Shown here: piece by piece, positions 5,172 through 54,223 of the stretch
Layout: every line of letters begins with the position of its first letter
How positions within the stretch are numbered: position 1 is the stretch's first letter
Assembly: GCF_900537075.1 (NCBI RefSeq)
Contig: NZ_UNRA01000001.1
Coordinates: forward strand, 1,078,191 to 1,142,190
Origin: Tropicibacter sp. Alg240-R139
GTDB taxonomy: Bacteria; Pseudomonadota; Alphaproteobacteria; Rhodobacterales; Rhodobacteraceae
Reading direction: 5' to 3'
Length of the DNA stretch: 64,000 nucleotides
The notes under the pieces: model-generated
Databases searched by the model: none
Told to the model about the DNA's origin: nothing
The model's input: the letters and a program-made list of their open reading frames with translations, nothing else
Translations under genes and position numbers: made by a program

Positions 5172-6242
5172 TTAGCGCCCTTTTATGATCATCAGCTCGC
5201 CAACATTCTCACGCGTGATATAGCCAATCAGCTGCCCGTCAGGGGTGCAGACGGCCACGGCGGCGGCACCTTCGTGCAGCGAGCCAAGTACAGCCTCCAA
5301 TCCGGTGGTCAGCGGCACACGCGGGATATTGGTGTCGATGATCTCACGCACGGATGTGTTGCGCGGGGTGTCCTCGGCCAGCACTTGAAACAGCCGCTCA
5401 CGAGTGACGAACCCCAACAGATAACCCTGATGGTCAACCACTGGAAACTCATGCTGGGTTGTGCGGATCACCGCATCTGCGGTGGTGGTCAGAGTGTCAT
5501 CCGGGCTTAGCCGCTCAAAGCTGGTGATCATGGCGTCGCGTGCCAGCAACCTGCGCGAGATCGAGCGCATGGCAACGTCCTGATTTTCGGCATTGGCCGC
5601 GACGAAAACAAAGACCGCAATCAGCACGAGCACTGGATTGCCGGTCATCAACCCGCTGAAACCCAACAGCACAGCCACTACCTGGCCCGCGATCGAGGCG
5701 ATGCGCGTGGCCCGCACCCTGTCCATTGTTAGACAAAGAAAGGCGCGAAACACCCGGCCACCGTCCATCGGAAAGGCGGGGATCATGTTGAAAATGGCCA
5801 AAAACAGGTTCACCACCGCCAGCCGCGACATGAAATCCGCAGCCGGGGTGTCAATGTTGTTGAGCGTGTCGAATTGAGGCCAGGCCCCCAGCAAGATCAA
5901 CACGCCCCAGATCACAACGTTCACCGCAGGACCGGCTAGCGCGACGGCGATTTCTTGCGCTGGTTTCTCAGGCATCCGTTCCAGCCGAGCCAGACCGCCG
6001 ATGGGCAGCAACGTGATGTCCGGTGTCTTGACCCCATAGCGCCGCGCCATCAGGGCATGGCCAAACTCATGCGCCAGAACACATGCAAAAAGGGCCAGCA
6101 CAAAAGCGATGTTTTCAATCGCCCCTGGCCAGCCCTGATTTGAATAGGCCCGCAGGCCAACCCATGCGAGCAAAAGGAAGAAGGTGACATGTATCCTGAG
6201 GTCCGAGCCCAAAAGGCGTCCCACAGAAAAGGACCATGTCAT
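5172..6242 (-). CDS. site-2 protease family membrane metalloprotease with CBS domains
   Basis: This 356-residue protein belongs to the S2P/M50 family of intramembrane zinc proteases with a C-terminal pair of CBS domains (MJ0392 type). The zinc motif HEFGH is at residues 58-62 in the second hydrophobic segment, and the third ligand lies in NMIPAFPMDGGR (Asp160). Four to six membrane segments fill residues 15-225. CBS motifs occupy about 240-350, with TAHEFPVVDH-like strands (TQHEFPVVDHQG) and AAVAVCTPDGQLIGYITREN. Substrate and role are unknown; CBS domains suggest control by adenine nucleotides. It sits 21 bases downstream of ssb, in the same direction. Confidence 0.87.
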   Translation of the reverse strand: MTWSFSVGRLLGSDLRIHVTFFLLLAWVGLRAYSNQGWPGAIENIAFVLALFACVLAHEFGHALMARRYGVKTPDITLLPIGGLARLERMPEKPAQEIAVALAGPAVNVVIWGVLILLGAWPQFDTLNNIDTPAADFMSRLAVVNLFLAIFNMIPAFPMDGGRVFRAFLCLTMDRVRATRIASIAGQVVAVLLGFSGLMTGNPVLVLIAVFVFVAANAENQDVAMRSISRRLLARDAMITSFERLSPDDTLTTTADAVIRTTQHEFPVVDHQGYLLGFVTRERLFQVLAEDTPRNTSVREIIDTNIPRVPLTTGLEAVLGSLHEGAAAVAVCTPDGQLIGYITRENVGELMIIKGR

Positions 6243-6263
6243 GCGCGTCCTCCTAGTGCGTCA

Positions 6264-6815
6264 TTAGAACGGGATCTCGTCGTCGTCGATGCTACCCGAT
6301 GCTGGTCCACGACCGCCGCCGCCACCTTGGCCACCTTGATTGCCGCCACCATAGGGATCGCCGCCACCCGCAGGGCCGCTGTCATAGCCGCCGCCACCGT
6401 AACCGCCACCTTGGCCGCCGCCGCCGCCATAGCCGCCGCCACCACCACCACCGCCGCCTTCGCCACGACCGTCCAGCATGGTCAGGGTCGAACCGAAGCC
6501 CTGCAACACAACCTCGGTCGAATAGCGGTCCTGACCCGATTGGTCCTGCCATTTGCGGGTTTGCAGCTGCCCTTCGACATAAACCTTTGACCCTTTTTTC
6601 AGATACTGCTCGGCGACGCGCACGAGACCCTCGTTGAAGATCGCGACCGAGTGCCACTCGGTCCGTTCACGGCGTTCGCCGGTGTTGCGGTCTTTCCAGT
6701 TTTCTGAGGTTGCGATGCGCAGATTGCACACCTTGCCGCCGTTCTGGAACGACCGCACCTCGGGGTCGCGGCCCAGGTTGCCGATGAGAATGACTTTGTT
6801 GACTGAGCCAGCCAT
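6264..6815 (-). CDS. ssb: single-stranded DNA-binding protein
   Basis: This 183-residue SSB has the OB-fold in residues 1-110, starting [20 protein letters not shown] and including [22 protein letters not shown]-type strands. A glycine-rich linker follows (about 118-168, runs of Gly with Tyr and Gln), then the acidic tip DDDEIPF that recruits replication and repair partners. The linker is long and almost pure Gly, which is usual in alphaproteobacteria. The gene starts well after a 215-base intergenic region and leads into the S2P gene. A dyad lies 30-50 bases upstream of its start. Confidence 0.96.
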
Positions 6816-7718: not shown

Positions 7719-8870
7719 ATGTCCCTGACCCGTTTCAGCTTTGCCACTGCTATATCCGTGGCTGTGTTCCCATTGCAGGGCGCAACCGCGCCGTTCGACA
7801 GCATCGAGGCCTTGGGCGAGGCGCTGTTTTTCGACACCAACCTTTCGGCCAATCGCACACAAAGTTGTGCCAGCTGCCATGACCCCGAGGCGGGGTTTGC
7901 AGACCCGCGCGATACGGACGCAGGACAGGCCGTTTCACGTGGGGATGATGGGGCGTCTTTAGGGGACCGAAATGCACCGACAGCAAGTTATGCCGCGTTG
8001 ACGCCTGCGTTTCACCTGAATGAAGAAGGTGAGTGGGTCGGTGGCATGTTCTGGGACGGGCGCGAGCCTGATCTGGCCGGGCAGGCGGGGGGGCCGCCCC
8101 TGAACCCGATCGAGATGGGAATGACGGACAAACCGGCAGTCGCCATGCGTCTGGCTGAAAATGCAGGGTACGTCTCCGCGTTTCAAAACCTGTTTGAGGT
8201 GGACATCATCACCCAGCCCGATCAGGCCTTTGGGGCTATGACACAGGCCATAGCGGCCTTTGAAGAAACCGAGCAGTTCGCGCCCTTTGACAGTAAATAT
8301 GATCGCTACCTGCGCGGAGAAGTGGACTTGAGCCGGGACGAAGAGTTGGGTCGCGTGCTCTTCTTCTCGGAACAGTTCACCAACTGCAATCAGTGCCACC
8401 AATTGAAGACCAGCCCGTTGGACCCGGCCGAGACCTTTACCGATTATACCTATCGCAACATCGGCGTGCCTTCGAACCTGACCGCACGGGCCGTGAACGG
8501 CACGGCAAAGGACACCCAGGATCTGGGGCTTCTGGCAAACCCCTTGGTGGATGACCCGGCGCAGGGTGGCAAGTTCAAGGTACCTACGCTGCGCAATGTG
8601 GCCGTCACAGGTCCCTACATGCACAACGGAGTGTTCACCGACCTACGCACGGTCATTCTGTTTTACAACAAATACAACACCAAGGCCAAAGCGCGCCAGA
8701 TCAACCCCGAGACCGGCGAACCCTGGCGCTGGCCCGAAGTGCCGCAGAACTTGGCGGTCAAGGAGTTGACCCAAGGGCCGGCCCTGGACGATCAACGCAT
8801 CGACGCCCTTGTGGCGTTCCTGAAAACGCTCACGGACGCACGCTACGAACCGCTGCTGGAAGCGCGCTAG
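7719..8870 (+). CDS. di-haem cytochrome c peroxidase
   Basis: This 383-residue periplasmic enzyme reduces hydrogen peroxide with electrons from a small cytochrome c or similar donor. It has a signal peptide (hydrophobic ATAISVAVFPLQG, residues 10-22) and two c-type haem sites: CASCH at 50-54 for the peroxidatic haem and CNQCH at 223-227 for the electron-transfer haem. The conserved VPTLRNVAVTGPYMHNGVF-like block (KVPTLRNVAVTGPYMHNG) carries the distal Met ligand region typical of BCCP/MauG relatives. MauG-type chemistry cannot be excluded, but no methylamine dehydrogenase genes are nearby. Probably monocistronic. Confidence 0.9.
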   Translation: MSLTRFSFATAISVAVFPLQGATAPFDSIEALGEALFFDTNLSANRTQSCASCHDPEAGFADPRDTDAGQAVSRGDDGASLGDRNAPTASYAALTPAFHLNEEGEWVGGMFWDGREPDLAGQAGGPPLNPIEMGMTDKPAVAMRLAENAGYVSAFQNLFEVDIITQPDQAFGAMTQAIAAFEETEQFAPFDSKYDRYLRGEVDLSRDEELGRVLFFSEQFTNCNQCHQLKTSPLDPAETFTDYTYRNIGVPSNLTARAVNGTAKDTQDLGLLANPLVDDPAQGGKFKVPTLRNVAVTGPYMHNGVFTDLRTVILFYNKYNTKAKARQINPETGEPWRWPEVPQNLAVKELTQGPALDDQRIDALVAFLKTLTDARYEPLLEAR

Positions 8871-9054
8871 GCCAAACCGCAGAACAGCATACACTTTGCG
8901 TGATTGCTGCTTTTGCGCGGGCCTAGGTTGGAGGAGTTAGAAAGCCTCAACGTTCACAGGTCCGGCAATGTCTCACGTTGTGCCGAGTAGTTCAGTCGAA
9001 CTGCTGAAGAATTGGCGGATGTCTCGGATTGCGAAGAGCCACGAGCACGGTTGA

Positions 9055-9094
9055 AATAAAAACAAACGGCTTGCCTAAGACAGACAAGCCGTTT
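9055..9094 (-). terminator. intrinsic terminator of the ABC importer operon
   Basis: On the minus strand AAACGGCTTG and CAAGCCGTTT form a perfect 10-bp stem with an 11-base loop, followed by GTTTTTATTT. It lies 24 bases after the stop of the ATPase gene. The remaining bases 8871-9054 hold no supported gene. Confidence 0.85.
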
Positions 9095-9117
9095 GCAGTT
9101 GGGTTGGAATTTGGGCG

Positions 9118-11205
9118 TTATTCTGCTGCGATCTTGATCACCGGTTGCATCTTTTCCAGCGTCTCGTCGCTCAGATGACATTTGACCTGATGCCCGTCGG
9201 CCAATGTCCGCACCGGTGGAACCTCTTTATCACACAGACCACCCCCCACTTCGGATTTCCAGCGGCACCGCGTCTGGAATGGGCAACCCGGAGGCGGGTT
9301 CATGGCCGACGGAATATCACCATCGAGAACGATATGCTCTTTCTCGATCGAGGTGTCGGCGATGGGCACGGCCGAAAGCAATGCTTCTGTATAGGGGTGA
9401 TAGGGCGGGCTGAACACCTGATCGGTGGTGCCCAGCTCGACGACATGGCCCAAATACATGACCATCACCCGATCCGACAGATAGCGCACAATCGACAGGT
9501 CGTGGCTGATAAACAGCAACGTCGTCTTGTGCTCGCGCTGGATTTCCATCAACAGGTCCGTCACGGCCGCCTGCACGGACACGTCCAGCGCCGAGACGGG
9601 TTCGTCCGCCACCACAATACGGGCGTCCCCGGCAAAGGCGCGGGCAATGCCAACACGCTGCTTTTGACCACCGGACAGCTGTCGCGGCATTCGGTCTGCA
9701 AAGGCGCGCGGCAGTTTCACCAGATCCAACAGTTCCAACATGCGCTGACGGCGCTCGGCTTCGGACTTTCCGATGCCAAAGATTTCCAGCGCACGGATGA
9801 TCTGCCGCCCGACGGTCATCGACGGATTCAGCGTGTCAAACGGGTTCTGGAACACCATCTGAACCTCGCCAACGGTCTTGGCGTCACGCTCTTCGATGGG
9901 CAGGCTTTCGATGTTGCGATTGTCCAGCAGGATCTGGCCATCGGTGGCCGTTTCAAGCCCCATTAGGACTTTGGCAAACGTCGACTTGCCACAACCGGAT
10001 TCGCCAACGATGGCAAGCGTCTCAGATTCGCGTGCCTCAAACGACAGGGTCTCGTTGGCTTTGACCACCTTCTTTTCCCCGCCTCCGAACAGGGCATTGG
10101 CTGCCACCTCATAATATTTCTTGAGGTTGTCCATCTTCAGGACGACCTTGCCGATCTCACCCTTCTTCTTCTGCTCGGCCAGTTCCAGCGGTGCGTTCCA
10201 ATCGATCTCCTGGAATTTCAGGCAGCGGGTGTGATGACGGTCATTGCCCGGTACAGGATCCATCGGGATATCCTGAGCATCGCAACGCCCCTCTTCAAAG
10301 TAGTCGCAGCGCGGGCCAAAGTTGCAGCCGGGTGGGCGCTCATGAGGCAGGGGGAAGTTGCCAGGAATGGCGATCAGCGGGCGTGCATTCTTGTCGGCCC
10401 CTGGCAGCGGGATCGAGCGGAACAGCGCCTGTGTATAGGGGTGTTGCATTTCGTCGAAAACATCCTTAATCGAGCCGCGCTCGACCGCCTCGCCGGAATA
10501 CATCACACACAGCCGGTCACAGGTTTCCAGGATAAGCCCCAAGTTGTGCGAAATGAACAGCATCGAGGTGCCGTATTTCTTGCCCAGATCCCTGACCAAT
10601 TCAACCACGGCGGCCTCGACCGTCACGTCCAAGGCGGTCGTGGGTTCATCCAGAATTAGCAGGGCCGGCTTAGACATCAGTGCCATGGCGATGACGATCC
10701 GCTGCTGTTGACCACCCGACAGCTGGTGCGGGAACGAATTCAACATCCTCTCGGGGTCGGGCAGACGCACATCCGTGACCACATCCAACGCGCGGGCGTA
10801 CGCCTCGTCCTTGCTCACGCCCTCGTGAATCATCGGCACTTCCATCAATTGCTGGCCGATCTTCATCGCGGGGTTCAGGGATGCCATCGGCTCCTGATAG
10901 ATCATCGCTATTTCGTTGCCGCGAATATCGCGCAACTCTTCGGCGCTCATTTCCGCCAGATCGCGGCCTTTGAACTTGATCGTGCCGCCAACGACACGGC
11001 CGTTCTTGCCAAGATCTTGCATCACACCAAGCGCCACAGTGGATTTGCCGCAACCTGATTCACCTACAAGACCGACGGCCTCGCCGGGTTGCACCGCGAC
11101 CGAGAAATCCATCACAGCGGGGATTTCCCGCAGGCGGGTGAAGAATGAGATGGACAGCTTGTCGATCTCCAGGATCGGGCCGTCGTAGTCCGCCATTTTG
11201 TTCAT
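9118..11205 (-). CDS. peptide/nickel-type ABC importer, two fused ATPase domains
   Basis: This 695-residue cytoplasmic protein fuses the two ATPases that are usually separate DppD and DppF subunits. The first nucleotide-binding domain (about 10-335) has Walker A GESGCGKST, LSGGQQQRI and Walker B LLILDEPTTALD; it ends with the oligopeptide-transporter C-terminal region PPGCNFGPRC. The second (about 355-690) has GESGCGKST, LSGGQKQRV, IVVADEPVSALD and another PPGCPFQTRC cysteine block. A good AGGAG lies 8 bases before the ATG. It is the last gene of the minus-strand importer operon and is followed by a terminator. Confidence 0.92.
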   Translation of the reverse strand: MNKMADYDGPILEIDKLSISFFTRLREIPAVMDFSVAVQPGEAVGLVGESGCGKSTVALGVMQDLGKNGRVVGGTIKFKGRDLAEMSAEELRDIRGNEIAMIYQEPMASLNPAMKIGQQLMEVPMIHEGVSKDEAYARALDVVTDVRLPDPERMLNSFPHQLSGGQQQRIVIAMALMSKPALLILDEPTTALDVTVEAAVVELVRDLGKKYGTSMLFISHNLGLILETCDRLCVMYSGEAVERGSIKDVFDEMQHPYTQALFRSIPLPGADKNARPLIAIPGNFPLPHERPPGCNFGPRCDYFEEGRCDAQDIPMDPVPGNDRHHTRCLKFQEIDWNAPLELAEQKKKGEIGKVVLKMDNLKKYYEVAANALFGGGEKKVVKANETLSFEARESETLAIVGESGCGKSTFAKVLMGLETATDGQILLDNRNIESLPIEERDAKTVGEVQMVFQNPFDTLNPSMTVGRQIIRALEIFGIGKSEAERRQRMLELLDLVKLPRAFADRMPRQLSGGQKQRVGIARAFAGDARIVVADEPVSALDVSVQAAVTDLLMEIQREHKTTLLFISHDLSIVRYLSDRVMVMYLGHVVELGTTDQVFSPPYHPYTEALLSAVPIADTSIEKEHIVLDGDIPSAMNPPPGCPFQTRCRWKSEVGGGLCDKEVPPVRTLADGHQVKCHLSDETLEKMQPVIKIAAE

Positions 11206-46740: not shown

Positions 46741-47226
46741 ATGGCTGATCAGATCAATACTCTCGAAGAGTTGAGCGCCGTTGCAGGCGTTGAAACCGTG
46801 GCCGAAGAAATCGTCCTGCGCGAACCCGTGCGTGACGAACTGGGCCGCTCGTATGCCACCGGCAAGCGTAAAGACGCTGTTGCGCGCGTTTGGATCAAAC
46901 CGGGTTCCGGCAAGGTCACCGTGAACGGCAAAGACCAGGACATTTATTTTGCACGTCCCGTTCTGCAGCTGATCCTGCGCCAGCCGTTCCAGGTTGCCGG
47001 CGTTGAAGGTGAATTCGACGTTGTTGCGACCGTCAAAGGCGGCGGCCTGACCGGTCAGGCCGGTGCGGTCAAGCACGGCATCTCGAAAGCACTGCAACTG
47101 TACAACCCCGCTCTGCGTGGTGCTCTGAAAGCCGCTGGCTTCCTGACCCGCGACAGCCGCGTTGTGGAACGTAAGAAATACGGTAAGCGCAAAGCGCGTC
47201 GCTCGTTCCAGTTCTCCAAGCGTTAA
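46741..47226 (+). CDS. rpsI: 30S ribosomal protein S9
   Basis: This 161-residue protein includes [21 protein letters not shown], the [19 protein letters not shown] block and the basic tail [15 protein letters not shown] whose last residues reach the P site. An acidic N-terminal extension of about 30 residues precedes the core and is usual in alphaproteobacteria. A terminator follows. Confidence 0.97.
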
Positions 47227-47250
47227 GCTTCGGATTTATCGAACAGAAAA

Positions 47251-47277
47251 GGGCCACGCAATCGCGTGGCCCTTTTT
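47251..47277 (+). terminator. intrinsic terminator after rpsI
   Basis: GGGCCACGC (47251-47259) pairs with GCGTGGCCC (47264-47272) around a 4-base loop, followed by TTTTT. It ends the rplM-rpsI transcript. Confidence 0.92.
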
Positions 47278-47336
47278 CGTTTGGGCGTCACATTTGGTCT
47301 CAATTTGATTTAAGTGCCTCTTCTGGCTTAATGTGC

Positions 47337-47349
47337 ATGCATATTGCAT
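47337..47349 (+). promoter_or_regulatory. ATGCA/TGCAT dyad upstream of truncated haemoglobin gene
   Basis: ATGCATATTGCAT is a perfect 5-bp dyad with a 3-base centre, 21 bases upstream of the haemoglobin start; TGCATG-type steps flank it. Position suggests an operator or leader element. It only loosely resembles NsrR half-sites. Confidence 0.35.
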
Positions 47350-47369
47350 GAATATTGGCGGAATTTGTT

Positions 47370-47738
47370 ATGGGCACCACGGTGTACGAAAAGTACGGCG
47401 GTTTCAAAACCATCAGCCGCATCGTTATGAACTTCTACGAAATGGCGCTGGATTCCGACCAGATCGGGGACTATTTTGCGGATGTAGACATGCCGCGTCT
47501 GATGGATCATCAAACCAAGTTCATTTCCTCGCTGGTGGGGGGGCCGGTGTCCTTTTCCGATGACAGATTGCGCGTTGTGCACGCCCAGCTGAACATCTCG
47601 CACGCGGATTTTGATGAAATGGGGCGGCTTCTGTCTGCGGCGCTGAGCGATCACGGAATGAAGCCGTCGGATGTGGATTTCGTGCTACACGAGATTGAAA
47701 GCAAACGCGCGATCATAGTGACGGCGGACGAGGGATGA
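47370..47738 (+). CDS. group 1 truncated haemoglobin
   Basis: This 122-residue haem protein has the trHbN layout: VYEKYGGFKTISRIVMNFYE with Tyr23 at the likely B10 position, FADVDMPRLMDHQTKFISSL, GGPVSF and the proximal histidine His71 in RVVHAQLNISHADFDEM. Such proteins bind oxygen or nitric oxide. ATG 47370 is preferred to an upstream TTG; GGCGGAA lies about 8 bases before it. It overlaps the adenylate cyclase gene by 4 bases (ATGA), implying a shared signal. Confidence 0.87.
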   Translation: MGTTVYEKYGGFKTISRIVMNFYEMALDSDQIGDYFADVDMPRLMDHQTKFISSLVGGPVSFSDDRLRVVHAQLNISHADFDEMGRLLSAALSDHGMKPSDVDFVLHEIESKRAIIVTADEG

Positions 47739-48784
47739 GTATCACGGCCATCAACGAGCAATTGCTGCGCTCCATCGGGGTGGGTGTGGCCATTGTCGAC
47801 GGGGTCAGTCACGAATTTGTCTTTGCCAACAAACCCTTTTGCGAATGGTTTGGAACCCCGGACGATAAGACCAGACTGAGTGAGTTGATCGAAGGGTTGT
47901 CGCCCGTCGACCTGGGCGAGGGCGATGCCGAAGGGCGCATGTTCACCGGAGAAGTGGAACTCAAGCGAAAGCGCAGAACGCTGGTCATCGCGGTTTCGAT
48001 CTCGGCCACGCGGTCCGGCGATCAACGGTTGTTGGTGGTCGAATGTCAAAACATCACTCGCATCCGCGAGCTGGAATCGATGATCGACAGCTATTCGACC
48101 ATGGTCGAACGCAACACGCGCGAGCTGGAGCGTGAAAAAGAGCGGGTGGAAAAGCTGTTGCTGAACCTGATGCCGCGTTCGGTCTATGAAGAATTCAAGA
48201 CCTTTGGCGTGGTCACGCCACAACTGTACGATCAGGTTTCAGTCGTGATGTTGGATTTTGTCGATTTCACCGCGTTTGCGACCAAAACCGATCCGACGGT
48301 AACGTTGTCAGAACTGAACGACATCTTCACCGCCTTTGATCGCATCGTCGAGCAATACGGCTGCGAGCGGATCAAGACCATTGGCGACGCGTATCTGGCC
48401 GTCAGTGGTATGCCTGATCCGGCACCAGAACATGCCTCTGCCGTGGCCCATTGTGCCGTGCGATTCCTGAGGTATCTGGAACGGCGCAACGAAAGCCATC
48501 AGCACACATGGCGCGCGCGGATCGGATTGGGGACGGGCGCTGCGGTCGGGTCTGTCGTGGGCATTCAGAAATACGTCTATGACGTCTTTGGCCCGGCGGT
48601 GAACATGGCCTCACGGCTTCAGATGATGGCCGATCCGATGGGCATCGTTGCCCCCGAAGAGATGAAGTTCGACCTGATCGACGAGTTCCAGATCGGTGAT
48701 TTTGGTGCCCATCAGATCAAGGGCCTGGGCGCGATGGACCTGATCACGGTCGAGGCGAACCTGAGGCCTGCCCATGTACGCTAA
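47735..48784 (+). CDS. class III adenylate cyclase with PAS-like sensor
   Basis: This 349-residue protein has a PAS-like domain (about 1-110, GVGVAIVDGVSHEFVFANKP), a coiled signalling helix (110-155, ELEREKERVEKLLLNLMP) and a class III cyclase domain (165-340). Metal-binding Asp174 and Asp218, purine-specifying Lys214 and Asp283, and Asn290/Arg294 are all present, which predicts cAMP rather than cGMP. No membrane segment is seen. It is translationally coupled to a haemoglobin gene, so gas or redox sensing is plausible. Confidence 0.9.
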   Translation: MSITAINEQLLRSIGVGVAIVDGVSHEFVFANKPFCEWFGTPDDKTRLSELIEGLSPVDLGEGDAEGRMFTGEVELKRKRRTLVIAVSISATRSGDQRLLVVECQNITRIRELESMIDSYSTMVERNTRELEREKERVEKLLLNLMPRSVYEEFKTFGVVTPQLYDQVSVVMLDFVDFTAFATKTDPTVTLSELNDIFTAFDRIVEQYGCERIKTIGDAYLAVSGMPDPAPEHASAVAHCAVRFLRYLERRNESHQHTWRARIGLGTGAAVGSVVGIQKYVYDVFGPAVNMASRLQMMADPMGIVAPEEMKFDLIDEFQIGDFGAHQIKGLGAMDLITVEANLRPAHVR

Positions 48785-48786
48785 GC

Positions 48787-49623
48787 TCAGCGTTTGAATG
48801 GGGGCAGGTCGCCGCTCAGCGGGACTTCTCCGATAAACCCACCAGATGCCAGCAGCCGTTTGTCGCCACCGCGTTTCTGGTCGATCTTGCGGGCGGTGCG
48901 TTTGATCTCTTTCATCGCGCGATAGGTGAATGGCCCGCGCCCGTCGTCGGGGGCCGCTTTGCCGAAATCGGTGCGCTCGCTGCCAATGACACTGGCGGGA
49001 ATGTCTACTCGGTTGGACAGGTCCGAAAACATGCCTTGAACGGCAACGGCGGGGTCCAGTTGATAGGCGCGAAAGCCGGGCCAAGGACGGGTGATGAAAT
49101 CATCCAGATGGTCGCAATAACTTTGCGATTGCTCCAACAGCTGCGCGGCGCCGCTTGGGCTGAGCAGGTAAGCGGCGGCACTGGGAAGAACGCCGACAAC
49201 CCGGCGCAGGTTTTGCCCCCCCAGAACGCGCATGGGACCAAATCGATAGCGCCCGCCAACCGCGTCCAGTTTGACCAGATCGAATTGCGCTTGTTCGGAT
49301 CCCAAGGCGGTGATCACTGCACCAGCGGTGGACGACAACAAAATGTCGTCCTCAAAAATCGCACCGGGCCGGTCGGTTTCAACGATGGTTTCCCAGGTCT
49401 TGCGGTGGCTTTCGAACACCGCGACCTCGGTCTTTGTCATGCTCCAATAAGGCCCCCAACTGTGCGGCCTGTATCGGGGCGATGTGTAATCACGCGTGGC
49501 TGAGGCATCAGTGGCAGAAACACGAATGGGGGCGGTGATGCCCCCATGCGCGCATTGGTCTGTCATGAAAACGGCGCGGTCCGGGACGCGATCGAGGTTC
49601 AGGAAATAAACCTCTGTTTTCAT
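48787..49623 (-). CDS. glycosyltransferase family 25
   Basis: This 278-residue protein resembles LPS-type GT25 enzymes: VYFLNLDRVPDRAVFMTDQ at the N-terminus, KTEVAVFESHRKTWETIVE, and the acidic metal motif AIFEDDILLS. YLLSPSGAAQLLEQS is the conserved later block. The ATG at 49623 overlaps the stop of the upstream 745-residue gene by 4 bases, so the two are coupled and probably act on one glycan. Donor and acceptor are unknown. Confidence 0.85.
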   Translation of the reverse strand: MKTEVYFLNLDRVPDRAVFMTDQCAHGGITAPIRVSATDASATRDYTSPRYRPHSWGPYWSMTKTEVAVFESHRKTWETIVETDRPGAIFEDDILLSSTAGAVITALGSEQAQFDLVKLDAVGGRYRFGPMRVLGGQNLRRVVGVLPSAAAYLLSPSGAAQLLEQSQSYCDHLDDFITRPWPGFRAYQLDPAVAVQGMFSDLSNRVDIPASVIGSERTDFGKAAPDDGRGPFTYRAMKEIKRTARKIDQKRGGDKRLLASGGFIGEVPLSGDLPPFKR

Positions 49624-51857
49624 TTGAAAATCTTGCGCACCTTGCGCCACTTGTACTTGGATCGGCCTTTGGCTTTTTCGCTCATGAACGCTTCGCCTGC
49701 ATCTTCTGCCTCGACCTTGCGCAGCAAGACGGGTGCGTTCCAGGGATCATAATCGATCAGTTTTTCCTGGGTCAGGTCAGGCCGCATGAATGTCTGCGCG
49801 GTCTGGTTCAGCATGGACGCCGCAAACGAGAACGAACTGTTTGAAATCGCCAGATGATCTCCCATCGTCATCGCTGCAAAGTCAGTAAAGAACCCATGCT
49901 CCAGATCGCTCTCGGGCAGATCTTTTTCGGTGATCACGTTGAAGTCCTTGAACGCAGGCAGCACTGCCTCGGGCTCATCCGATGCAATATACAGCGTCAG
50001 ATCCGGGTGCTGTTCGCGCAAGCCTTGCAGCCAATCCAGATACCAGGCCTCGGGCGCGATAAAGAACACGCCAGTGCCAAAGTCACCGCGCCGCAGGTGC
50101 AGCGGCACTACGGGTCCGGGCTGCGCATCAAACAGCGCCTTCAGCTGGGCTGCACGCTCGGCATAGGCGCCCTTGAACGCAAAATGCTCCTGCATCAGCT
50201 CTTTGTACGGTTTGTAGTAGCGTGTGTGATACTGAAAGAACCCGGCGAAATCGGTGGCGGGCCGCACTTCGGGGTCATTGGCGACCGTGCTGTTGGACAG
50301 CTCATAGCCTTGTTCTTCGATCTTGAACGGCAGTTCGGGCATCTCGGTCAGGCCGGGGGCCACGTTGAAAATGTCATCGCCAGCCCAGGTCGAGTTAACG
50401 GGGGTATAGTCATATTCGCGCGCATAGGTCTGGATGAACAGATATTGGAACACCTGATTGGCGAACCGCCCCATCGAACCCACGACCGAACAGCCCACCA
50501 ACGGGCGACGAACATAAAGCGCATCGCCCCATTCCTCGCTGTAAGGCGTATTGGTCATCACGCGAATGAACCCGTGCTCTTCCAGAAATGCGTCGATCTC
50601 GTGGATCAGCGGGCAACCGCTGTAAAGCTCTGAGTAATTAACTTCGATCTGCAACGCTTTGATATTCTTTAGAAGTCCGGTCGCGCCTTTCAGCGCTTTC
50701 AGCTCGGCCCCTTGAATATCCATAGCGATGAAATCAAGGCTGGCTGGGTCAATCCCGGCTTCCTCCAGCAAAGTGTCGATCAGTGCCGTGCGCACGGTGA
50801 TCTGCTTTTCAACGCCGATCTTGGGGTACAGCTTGGCGTGATCCTTAAGCTCGAGCAGCGAGCTGGATTGATTCATGGACGTGATGTTGAAGGTGGCTTG
50901 GCCTTCTTCTTCGGCGGCGGCGGATTCGATGACGCTCACATCACCGTCCGAGGTAAACCGATCACGCAGGCCACCGGCCAGATCGGGGTTTGCCTCAACA
51001 AACACAACAGGGCTGATACCCTTGGCGCGATAGGTCGTGATTTCGTTGCCCTCGTGACCACCCACATGCAGGACGCCTGTGGGTTTGATCCCGAAATGCG
51101 CCATTCGGTCGAAATCCAGCTCGATTTCGCCGCCCTCTTTCAGAAACGGTTTCATTAACCGTTCGTGCAGGGCCAAGTAGTTGGAATAGCTGTAATCTTC
51201 GGTCTTATCGGTGAACTTCTTCACCTCGGAAAACTTGCCGTTCTGCACCCGCAGCACGCGATAGCCGAAACGGCGCAAGTAAGACCAAACATTGCGCAAG
51301 GACGTGCCCGCGTCCAGGAAGGTGCCGCCGTATTCGAATTGCAAGAAGTCTACCTGACCGCGGCGCAAAAGCTCTCGGGTGCCGCGCAGTACGTCATATT
51401 CCGCCCCTTCGACATCAACTTTCAGGAACCGGATCTGTTCGGTTCGACCAGCCCAATAAGTGTCCATTGTGGTGCCGGGCACGGTGATGGCGTCAAAACC
51501 TGCAGTTAGCAGCTCGTCCTCGACACTGGTGCGCCGGTGCAGCGAGCTGAGCCGTGCGTCATCGCGATAGACGTGAAACGTCAGATCCTCGTCGCGGTTC
51601 GACACCGCATTCCAGTTTAGCGTGACCTTGTCGGCGATGGTGCCCTGCAGCACCTGATGAGCGTCCTTGGAGGCCTCAAAGGCGTGAATTTTAGCATCCG
51701 CCATCTTCAACACGCTTTCGGACCATTTGCCGTGGTGGGCGCCGACGTCGAACACGATATCCCCGGGGCGGATGCAATTCTTGATAATCATCCGCTCTTC
51801 GTCGGTGATTGGGTCATCCTTGTGGCTTTTGCCGCGGAGCTTTTTCAGGAACTTCAT
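49620..51857 (-). CDS. FkbM-FkbM-GT11 fusion: two methyltransferase domains and a fucosyltransferase-like domain
   Basis: This 745-residue protein carries three enzyme domains. The first FkbM methyltransferase (about 30-210) has VFDVGAHHGKWS and KVDVEGAEYDVLRG. The second (about 255-440) has VLHVGGHEGNEIT and MDIQGAELKALKG. The third (about 455-715) is GT11/alpha-1,2-fucosyltransferase-like: GRFANQVFQYLF, HLRRGDF and ISNSSFSFAASML match the three family motifs, with Ala replacing the usual Gly of GNQxFQY. A lysine-rich tail KGRSKYKWRKVRKIFK ends the protein. It is followed, with a 4-base overlap, by a GT25 gene. Product is probably a methylated, possibly fucosylated surface glycan. Confidence 0.85.
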   Translation of the reverse strand: MKFLKKLRGKSHKDDPITDEERMIIKNCIRPGDIVFDVGAHHGKWSESVLKMADAKIHAFEASKDAHQVLQGTIADKVTLNWNAVSNRDEDLTFHVYRDDARLSSLHRRTSVEDELLTAGFDAITVPGTTMDTYWAGRTEQIRFLKVDVEGAEYDVLRGTRELLRRGQVDFLQFEYGGTFLDAGTSLRNVWSYLRRFGYRVLRVQNGKFSEVKKFTDKTEDYSYSNYLALHERLMKPFLKEGGEIELDFDRMAHFGIKPTGVLHVGGHEGNEITTYRAKGISPVVFVEANPDLAGGLRDRFTSDGDVSVIESAAAEEEGQATFNITSMNQSSSLLELKDHAKLYPKIGVEKQITVRTALIDTLLEEAGIDPASLDFIAMDIQGAELKALKGATGLLKNIKALQIEVNYSELYSGCPLIHEIDAFLEEHGFIRVMTNTPYSEEWGDALYVRRPLVGCSVVGSMGRFANQVFQYLFIQTYAREYDYTPVNSTWAGDDIFNVAPGLTEMPELPFKIEEQGYELSNSTVANDPEVRPATDFAGFFQYHTRYYKPYKELMQEHFAFKGAYAERAAQLKALFDAQPGPVVPLHLRRGDFGTGVFFIAPEAWYLDWLQGLREQHPDLTLYIASDEPEAVLPAFKDFNVITEKDLPESDLEHGFFTDFAAMTMGDHLAISNSSFSFAASMLNQTAQTFMRPDLTQEKLIDYDPWNAPVLLRKVEAEDAGEAFMSEKAKGRSKYKWRKVRKIFK

Positions 51858-52127
51858 TCAAGCGCTTCCATGGTCTGCAGCGTTCGAAAACGCGCATGTT
51901 TGGGGTTGATCCGCACAAAGGCCAGATGAGGGGCCAAATGGCTGTGTGAACGGGGTTTGCGTTGCATCTGGTTTGGCAGAAACTCCCAGAGTTGTAAACG
52001 CTGCGACGACCCCAGACGCTGGGATTGGCCCAACGTGGGCCGACCTAAATGTGGATTGTTCGCAATTTGGTTTTCCCTCAGGATGAACTGCGATAGGGAG
52101 CTTGCTTATCGAAGGGCAGGAGGCATC

Positions 52128-52739
52128 ATGAGCATCAAGAACACGGCGCTGTATCGTCGCATGCGGTATCGCAAGGGTTTGGAAGAATGGCTGGAAACGG
52201 GCTTTGACGTGCCTGCGCCCGCGATTGCGAAACGCTCGGTTCTCAAGCGCTATAGCTTGTCGGCATCCACTTGGGTCGAAACGGGCACCAACATGGGCAA
52301 CACCACTGCCTATCTGGGTCAACTTGCCGACCGGGTGATAACGATCGAGCCCGAGCCGAATCTCTTTGCCAGCGCCAACGCGCGCTTTGGTAATGACCCT
52401 TCGATCGAGGTGATCAAGGACGTCAGCGAAAACGTTTTTCCCGCGCTCCTGCCGGACCTGACCGGCAATGTGTGCTTTTGGCTTGATGGGCATTATTCCG
52501 GCGACGGTACCTTTCAGGGCGAACTGGAATGCCCGATCCGCGAAGAATTGCAGGCGATTTCGGACAACATGGACAAATGGGACGGCGTTTCGATCATGAT
52601 CGACGACATGCGATGCTTTGATCCCGAAAAACCCGGCTTCTCGCAGTATCCAACCAAGGAATTCCTGGTCGATTGGGCCGTGTCGCGCGGTTTGCGGTGG
52701 GACATCGAACACGATATTTTTATCGCGCGCTCGAAGTGA
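52128..52739 (+). CDS. methyltransferase-like small protein
   Basis: This 203-residue protein looks like a class I SAM fold lacking a tight motif I: TWVETGTNMGNTTAYLGQLA and VITIEPEPNLFASANARF would be motifs I and II, and CFWLDGHYSGDGT resembles the acidic post-motif. GGCAGGAGGCATC gives a perfect ribosome binding site before ATG 52128. Close to the glycan genes but on the opposite strand. Substrate unknown. Confidence 0.7.
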   Translation: MSIKNTALYRRMRYRKGLEEWLETGFDVPAPAIAKRSVLKRYSLSASTWVETGTNMGNTTAYLGQLADRVITIEPEPNLFASANARFGNDPSIEVIKDVSENVFPALLPDLTGNVCFWLDGHYSGDGTFQGELECPIREELQAISDNMDKWDGVSIMIDDMRCFDPEKPGFSQYPTKEFLVDWAVSRGLRWDIEHDIFIARSK

Positions 52740-52746
52740 TCCGGGC

Positions 52747-53361
52747 TTACTTGTCCGCTTCGATCAACCCCAACCCCCGCAGATAAATCCCGATCCCGGT
52801 TTCCAACAGATCCTCGGGCGGGAAGGGGGACGCAGTGCCCGTGTTGCGCGCATAAAGTTCAACCACACCATGGCTCATCGCCCAAATGTGGGCGCTGAAC
52901 ATGGACGCAGGTGGGCGTTTTTCCGCCGGAATATGCTCCGACAGTTCGCCTGCGGCACGTTCCAGAACCGCTTTGGCACGGTTGGCAGCCGCGGCCAGCT
53001 CGGGTGTTCGGTTCACCGAAATGCCGCTTTCGAACATGGAAATATAGTGTCCCGGGTGTCGCCGGGCAAAGGCCAGATAGGCACGTCCCGTTGCCTCGAA
53101 CGCGGCCAGCGCGGACGGCTGCCCAGTGTCATAGGCGTATTGCATCAGGTCGGCGAACATGTCGAAGCCCTGACGCGCGGCTTCGGCGATCAGGTCTTCG
53201 CGTCCTGCGAAATGGCGATAGACGGCTGCCGGGGTGACGCCGGCCGTCTTGGCCGCTTCGGAAAGCGTGAACCCGGTTGGGCCCTTTTCTTCGATCAGCT
53301 TCAGGGCCGCCTCGATCAGGGCTTGGCGCAGATTGCCGTGATGATAACCGCGTTTAGGCAT
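52747..53361 (-). CDS. TetR family transcriptional regulator
   Basis: This 204-residue regulator has a clear N-terminal [24 protein letters not shown], and a ligand-binding C-terminal domain of the TetR_C_33/WHG type ([15 protein letters not shown]). Its start codon overlaps the last 8 bases of ppk2. It may regulate ppk2 or other genes; no operator was identified. Confidence 0.88.
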
Positions 53362-54223
53362 CCCAGATGTCCGGTCCACCGCAAATGTTGAGGTCAGGTT
53401 TGCCTACGGCCTTGGCGTCCTTGCCGTCATAATCCAGCTGGCTTAGCACCGTCTGAATTGCTGCAATGCGCGCGCGTTTCTTGTCGTCCGAACGCACAAT
53501 GGTCCAAGGGTTTATATCTGAATGCGACCGCAGCAGAGTTTCTTGGATCGCAGCTGTATAATCATCCCACTTGTGCAGACCCTTGACGTCGATGGGGCTG
53601 AGCTTCCACTGTTTCAGGGGATCACCTTCGCGGTCGCGAAACCGACGCAGCTGCTCGGCGCGGCCAACATTCAGCCAGAACTTGAACGTGCGAATGCCGT
53701 CCTCGACAAATCCTTGCTCAAGGGGCAGAACCTGGCGGAAAAAGCGCTCACGCTCTTCGTCGGTGCAAAAGCCAAACACCTTTTCGACCACGCCGCGATT
53801 GTACCAACTGCGATCATAAAACACGATTTCCCCGGCCGAGGGCAGATGTTCGACGTAGCGCTGAAAATACCACTGACTGCGTTCGGACTCTGACGGTTTG
53901 GCCAGCGCCACGACGCGCGCACCACGGGGGTTCAGGTTTTCGCGGAACCGTTTGATCGTGCCGCCCTTGCCAGCCGCATCACGCCCTTCGAACAAGATAG
54001 CAATACGCTCGCCGGTCTGTTTGGTCCAGGCCTGCAACTTGACCAGCTCGATTTGCAGCGCCTCCATCCGCTTTTCATAATCCTTGCGTCCCATGCGTTC
54101 GTCATAGGGGTAGGTTGGGTTCAGGATGTCACCCTTGTCGGACTTCAAAACCCGCTCGCGGATATCCTGCGGCGCATCATCGTTGAGGTAGCTGGTGATC
54201 TCACCGTGCGTTGGGCGGGCCAT
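53354..54223 (-). CDS. ppk2: polyphosphate kinase 2
   Basis: This 289-residue PPK2 transfers phosphate between polyphosphate and nucleoside diphosphates. Walker A is [15 protein letters not shown] (80-93), Walker B includes [17 protein letters not shown], and the lid region [11 protein letters not shown] follows. Length and the single domain indicate class I, mostly nucleoside-diphosphate phosphorylation. It ends inside the TetR gene. Confidence 0.92.

Follow-up and report, generated by a model that had tools for sequence, protein, structure and literature searches.

The window, the whole 64,000-nucleotide stretch of Tropicibacter sp. Alg240-R139 DNA that was analysed, contains a gene that joins two FkbM methyltransferase domains to a glycosyltransferase domain. 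It is coupled to a gene for a second glycosyltransferase, and a divergent methyltransferase gene lies nearby. The features of the locus are the following.

49620..51857, minus strand: FkbM-FkbM-GT11-like fusion gene, 745 aa, a single open reading frame; same architecture in loci L004, L006 and L033-L036.
51255..51749, minus strand: FkbM methyltransferase domain 1 (FkbM1, aa 37-201), with DVGAHHG and DVEGAE; PF05050 E 2.5e-20; branch of D-x-E-G members.
50565..51065, minus strand: FkbM methyltransferase domain 2 (FkbM2, aa 265-431), with HVGGHEG and DIQGAE; PF05050 E 3.4e-17; BLASTP to NoeI E 3e-14; placed by the tree on the NoeI branch.
49797..50495, minus strand: predicted GT11-like glycosyltransferase domain (aa 455-687); PHROG 2644 E 4.4e-17; model pLDDT 86.6; assigned by fold and by a FUT8 profile match.
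50082..50099, minus strand: HLRRGD (aa 587-592), the motif through which enzymes of the fucosyltransferase superfamily bind the GDP-sugar; its H, R and D do not vary among 37 relatives.
48787..49623, minus strand: GT25 glycosyltransferase gene; PF01755 E 5.6e-15; it follows the fusion gene immediately in each of the seven triple-domain loci.
52128..52739, plus strand: class I methyltransferase gene (VETGT...FWLDGHY type), the divergent neighbour; 95% in L004; homologous to the methyltransferases of L081-L083.

The first-pass annotation had described 49620-51857 as one reading frame without naming its strand, and this description holds on the minus strand. The frame runs from an ATG at 51857 to a stop at 49620 with zero internal stops, and the plus strand of the same interval is interrupted by stops. 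The motifs quoted in that annotation (VFDVGAHHGKWS, VLHVGGHEGNEIT, GRFANQVFQYLF, HLRRGDF, and ISNSSFSFAASML) are all found in the fusion protein. The overlap of four bases with a GT25 gene was also confirmed: the GT25 ATG at 49623 and the fusion-gene stop share ATGA (...TTCAAATGAAAACA...; overlap sequence AAATGAAA), and the GT25 product scores 56.2 bits with PF01755 against a cut-off of 24. The best known role of GT25 enzymes is in LPS synthesis.

Both methyltransferase domains belong to the FkbM family, and they are not recent copies of each other. Searched apart with Methyltransf_21 (PF05050), FkbM1 scores 73.8 bits and FkbM2 63.6 bits against a cut-off of 22.7, and two stretches of the protein match TIGR01444 (146.8 bits, cut-off 37.7). 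In addition to the profile match, each domain retains the SAM loop, the acidic residue after strand 2, and the D-x-E/Q-G-A-E block (D-x-E/Q-G-x-E in the family). FkbM1 and FkbM2 share 24% identity, and in a tree of 46 FkbM domains FkbM1 groups with D-x-E-G-x-E members and FkbM2 with D-x-Q-G-x-E members, which rules out a recent tandem duplication. The two blocks had been distinguished in the first-pass annotation as EGAE and GAEL; the real contrast is between D-V-E-G-A-E and D-I-Q-G-A-E. The Q form is that of one whole FkbM branch and of NoeI from Sinorhizobium fredii NGR234, a PF05050 member (E 2.6e-20) with a DVQGAE block. In the tree NoeI shares the branch of FkbM2, to which it is about 24% identical, and its BLASTP match to FkbM1 is at 2e-9. 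In Nod factor synthesis NodZ adds fucose and NoeI methylates that fucose at the 2-O position (PMC6275314, PMC4881576). From their sequences, the FkbM domains are predicted to O-methylate sugars.

Judged from its modelled fold, the third domain belongs to the fucosyltransferase superfamily as a divergent, GT11-like member, GT11 being the nearest sequence family. In the separate domain searches this was the one segment below its Pfam threshold, scoring 19.2 bits with the GT11 profile PF01531 against a cut-off of 23.9. Because the cut-off was tested and missed, the domain is filed in the superfamily and not as plain GT11. The earlier assignment to GT11 needs correcting on this point. A viral relative, L081, does pass PF01531 with 42 bits, and hhalign links the subfamily to phage enzymes of the GT11 alpha-1,2-fucosyltransferase kind at 98.6%. 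The PHROG 2644 match, annotated as glycosyltransferase, covers the whole domain. The GT11 motifs HxRRxD and GNQ...NSS are present and are invariant or nearly so in an alignment of 37 sequences, where H, R, and D of HxRRxD, N20, Q24, and NS of NSS (domain numbering) do not vary.

A structure of the domain alone was predicted by AlphaFold with the 37-relative alignment, and its top Foldseek matches are human FUT8, NodZ, Arabidopsis FUT1, and POFUT1. With VIA-align 2 the model superimposes on FUT1 with Z 16.3 (rmsd 3.6, 250 residues aligned), on NodZ with Z 15.9 (rmsd 3.2, 229 residues), and on POFUT1/2 and FUT8 with Z 13-15, so that the fucosyltransferase set as a whole spans Z 13.3-16.3 over 213-253 residues. 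The first unrelated structure below them is a GT9 enzyme at Z 8.8. The model therefore shares the GT-B-like fold of solved fucosyltransferases (GT11/GT23/GT37/GT65/GT68), at a sequence identity to the closest of just 10-18%. The subfamily profile finds FUT8 by sequence as well (E 5.9e-4). With phmmer the full-length protein had only chance matches in the PDB, and a full-length AlphaFold model built with five close sequences was poor (pLDDT 54) and was set aside.

The fusion is conserved but rare. A search for the same architecture across genomes, which the first-pass annotation had proposed, turned up six further loci with the three domains in the same order and GT25 directly behind, at 49-96% identity. 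The orthologues come from a congeneric species (L004, 96%), from Pseudodonghicola flavimaris (L033/L005) and P. xiamenensis (L036) at 71-72%, from two MAGs (L034 and L035, 65%), and from G213 (L006, about 50%). The gene is present in 4 of 295 genomes of a family sample with mainly one genome per genus, and the order-level and class-level genome samples contained zero additional full-length matches. The order that had been called unusual is therefore rare, but it is not unique. In three orthologue pairs dN/dS is 0.01-0.24 for each domain, showing that all three are kept by purifying selection in the pairs tested.

The interval between rpsI and the tetR-ppk2 backbone is a variable insertion site in Rhodobacteraceae. 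In the window the fusion and GT25 genes lie between these flanks (46741-53379 from rpsI to tetR, with an optional cyclase gene), and the triple-domain gene with GT25 occupies the same site in L033 and L036. Six fetched genomes (L061, L065, L070, L071, L079, and L080) have a short interval without a gene module. A lone fkbM is found in L063 and L074, an acyltransferase with fkbM in L072, and a sulfotransferase in L073. CDP-sugar clusters are present in L055, L056, L062, and L075, two of which are species of the same genus; these clusters encode an NTP transferase, a dehydratase, an epimerase, a C-methyltransferase, a CmcI-type methyltransferase, and a GT2 enzyme, and some include fkbM. Since L066, L076, and L078 carry genes without an evident glycan role there, the site often but not exclusively holds glycan modules. 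In the window itself, the genes next to the pair do not form a polysaccharide cluster. G213 has the pair at a different location, where it adjoins two group-1 glycosyltransferases, a GT28-like gene, and a UDP-glucose/GDP-mannose dehydrogenase. The other modules at the rpsI site and the G213 neighbourhood support the role in surface-glycan modification that had been proposed from the window.

Enzymes that combine a methyltransferase with glycosyltransferases are known from other bacteria. WsaE of the Geobacillus stearothermophilus S-layer glycan has a methyltransferase and two rhamnosyltransferase domains in one chain and 2-O-methylates rhamnose (PMC2943079). The window protein resembles it in having a sugar O-methyltransferase and a glycosyltransferase in one polypeptide and in the start/stop overlap with a neighbouring gene. 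It differs in having two FkbM domains and one fucosyltransferase-fold domain in place of one methyltransferase and two rhamnosyltransferase domains, and its second glycosyltransferase sits on a separate gene. ORF6 of Klebsiella pneumoniae O7 is a methyltransferase-kinase with a coiled coil and two GT2 modules (PMC11231755). There too the methyltransferase is N-terminal to the glycosyltransferase modules in one chain, but the kinase and GT2 modules are not found in the window protein and the glycosyltransferase fold family differs. NodZ and NoeI likewise pair an FkbM-family methyltransferase, on the branch of FkbM2, with a fucosyltransferase of the same superfamily. However, they are encoded by separate genes and act on a lipo-chitooligosaccharide, there is no second FkbM, and the glycosyltransferase is GT23 instead of GT11-like. 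The principle of a single-chain methyltransferase-glycosyltransferase is thus already known from WsaE and O7 ORF6, and the FkbM-FkbM-GT11-like order is a new variant of it. In a literature search that had most subscription papers outside it, no description was found of this order (FkbM-FkbM-fucosyltransferase-like), of FkbM with GT11 or another fucosyltransferase, or of an FkbM-glycosyltransferase fusion. The fusion is a joining of known parts, real and conserved but not revolutionary.

The divergent gene at 52128..52739 is probably associated with the pair. It is missing from L033 and L036 and is therefore not essential to the fusion and GT25 genes. A second METHYLTRANSFERASE link is that its product resembles the methyltransferase tied to GT11-like domains in viral contigs, which hold the nearest relatives of the GT11-like domain. 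In these contigs the domain is fused to the methyltransferase (L081) or adjacent to it (L082, L083), and the viral methyltransferases are about 30% identical to the 52128..52739 product (3e-16 to 3e-19). The fusion in the IMG/VR contig L081 (2455-3762, 435 aa) is an independent union. As in the window protein, the methyltransferase is N-terminal to the GT11-like relative, which is 36% identical, but it is of the other type, that of 52128..52739. A methyltransferase has therefore joined this glycosyltransferase subfamily at least twice.

From sequence comparison, the methyltransferase pair appears to be older than its union with the glycosyltransferase. The nearest outgroup in both FkbM branches is an FkbM-FkbM protein of Azospirillum ramasamyi (WP_111070811; support 96/88 and 96/93), which has domains of the same two branches in the same order. 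A glycosyltransferase of the same subfamily is encoded two genes away, unfused to the methyltransferases and preceded by a TPR part (WP_111070809); GT25 was not found in the fetched locus. The FkbM pair is thus already fused in Azospirillum, with the glycosyltransferase still separate. Azospirillaceae loci (L059 5155-7902; L060 around 6008-6778 and 8602-10425) encode TPR proteins that have a GT11-like domain at the C-terminus, one of them adjoining a 2602-codon repetitive open frame, and these may possibly be protein glycosylation systems. In the cyanophage S-SRM01 of Synechococcus (L053 3189-7876), a glycan cluster encodes FkbM, two GT11, and GT25 enzymes on separate adjacent genes. An FkbM2-like gene stands immediately before a GT11 gene, with GT25 three genes further on, so the same parts occur there unfused. 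A phage origin of the full-length gene is unsupported: each phage record spans at most one domain, and GC content is flat along the fusion gene.

Some related copies are degenerate. In Neorhizobium sp. EC2-8 (L037 5839-8885) the FkbM1 part lacks the SAM loop, and a frame break, either real or a sequencing error, interrupts the glycosyltransferase part; another FkbM gene lies just upstream, as if replacing the lost FkbM1. In the G213 orthologue (L057 7619-9826) FkbM2 is missing a conserved segment and its WGDAL motif is changed or lost, suggesting that this protein possibly has a single active methyltransferase. Each of the two methyltransferases can therefore degenerate in a protein whose other parts are still recognisable, and not every copy has both methyltransferase activities.

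The fusion protein is very probably a glycan-modifying methyltransferase-glycosyltransferase, and most likely a compact enzyme that decorates a cell-surface sugar. What the data show is the domains, fold, coupling, conservation, selection, and site; knowledge of the protein families suggests the donor, the acceptor, the order of reactions, and the identity of the glycan as follows. The product would be a soluble cytoplasmic enzyme that carries out two chemistries on a surface-glycan intermediate. Its C-terminal domain would use the HxRRxD (HLRRGD) site to attach a single sugar to the glycan, with a GDP-sugar, most likely GDP-L-fucose, as donor. FkbM2 is proposed to O-methylate the sugar just added, because NoeI lies on its side of the tree and NodZ is among the best glycosyltransferase folds. 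FkbM1 may methylate another hydroxyl or an adjacent residue, and the translationally coupled GT25 enzyme would extend or branch the same glycan by a further sugar. The fusion would hold transfer and capping together at a fixed ratio, and the pair would be an exchangeable cassette in the glycan-gene insertion site adjoining rpsI. This chain from GDP-sugar transfer through O-methylation and GT25 extension to an exchangeable cassette is, taken whole, slightly better than an even prospect. Its most specific form, a trifunctional enzyme that transfers fucose or a comparable GDP-sugar and places O-methyl groups on two of its positions to give a di-O-methyl sugar cap, exchangeable together with GT25, is put forward tentatively.

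The choice of donor is where an alternative survives best. GDP-mannose 4,6-dehydratase (gmd) is the first enzyme towards GDP-fucose, and its presence in the window's own genome makes GDP-fucose a plausible donor, being permissive and no proof. Full-length gmd was not found in the carriers G138 and G073, where the search returned short pieces or a weaker homologue only. An enzyme of the same class could use a different donor such as GDP-rhamnose, GDP-mannose, or GDP-colitose, with FkbM methylating that sugar or a backbone residue. The fold and HxRRxD define the superfamily and not the sugar, the identity to the nearest solved folds is low, the gmd-like gene of G073 (298 bits, under the gmd cut-off) could be a different GDP-sugar enzyme, and WsaE offers a precedent with rhamnose. 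However, the nearest solved relatives all use GDP-fucose, and FkbM2 shares both its branch and DxQGAE with the fucose methyltransferase NoeI, so that another donor is possible but doubtful.

It is rather unlikely that one FkbM domain is a non-catalytic scaffold and that a single methylation takes place. The losses of conserved motifs from FkbM2 in G213 and FkbM1 in Neorhizobium, with the remaining protein persisting, point in that direction. They are countered by the intact SAM loops, acidic residues, and D-x-E/Q-G-A-E blocks of both domains in the window protein and by strong purifying selection on both. Modification of a surface protein (a giant adhesin, S-layer, or flagellin) instead of a polysaccharide is improbable. 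It would fit the TPR context of the closest Azospirillaceae relatives, with the repetitive frame beside one of them, and the presence of POFUT1 and POFUT2 among the fold matches, but the rhodobacterial fusion proteins have no TPR part, the rpsI site and the G213 neighbourhood are of polysaccharide type, and GT25 is associated with LPS. Finally, misassembly, raised in the first-pass annotation as grounds for rejecting the fusion, or chance joining of separate genes is refuted by the dN/dS values and by the recurrence of the architecture in the six other loci, which come from several assemblies of both isolates and MAGs; no evidence for either was found.

O-methylated sugars on bacterial surfaces influence phage and host recognition, and to our knowledge most of the enzymes responsible for this methylation are unassigned. 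Here two FkbM domains are tied to a well-understood glycosyltransferase fold, giving a concrete hypothesis for their substrate, namely the sugar that the glycosyltransferase adds. The rpsI-tetR site in turn is a place where related strains exchange glycan modules.
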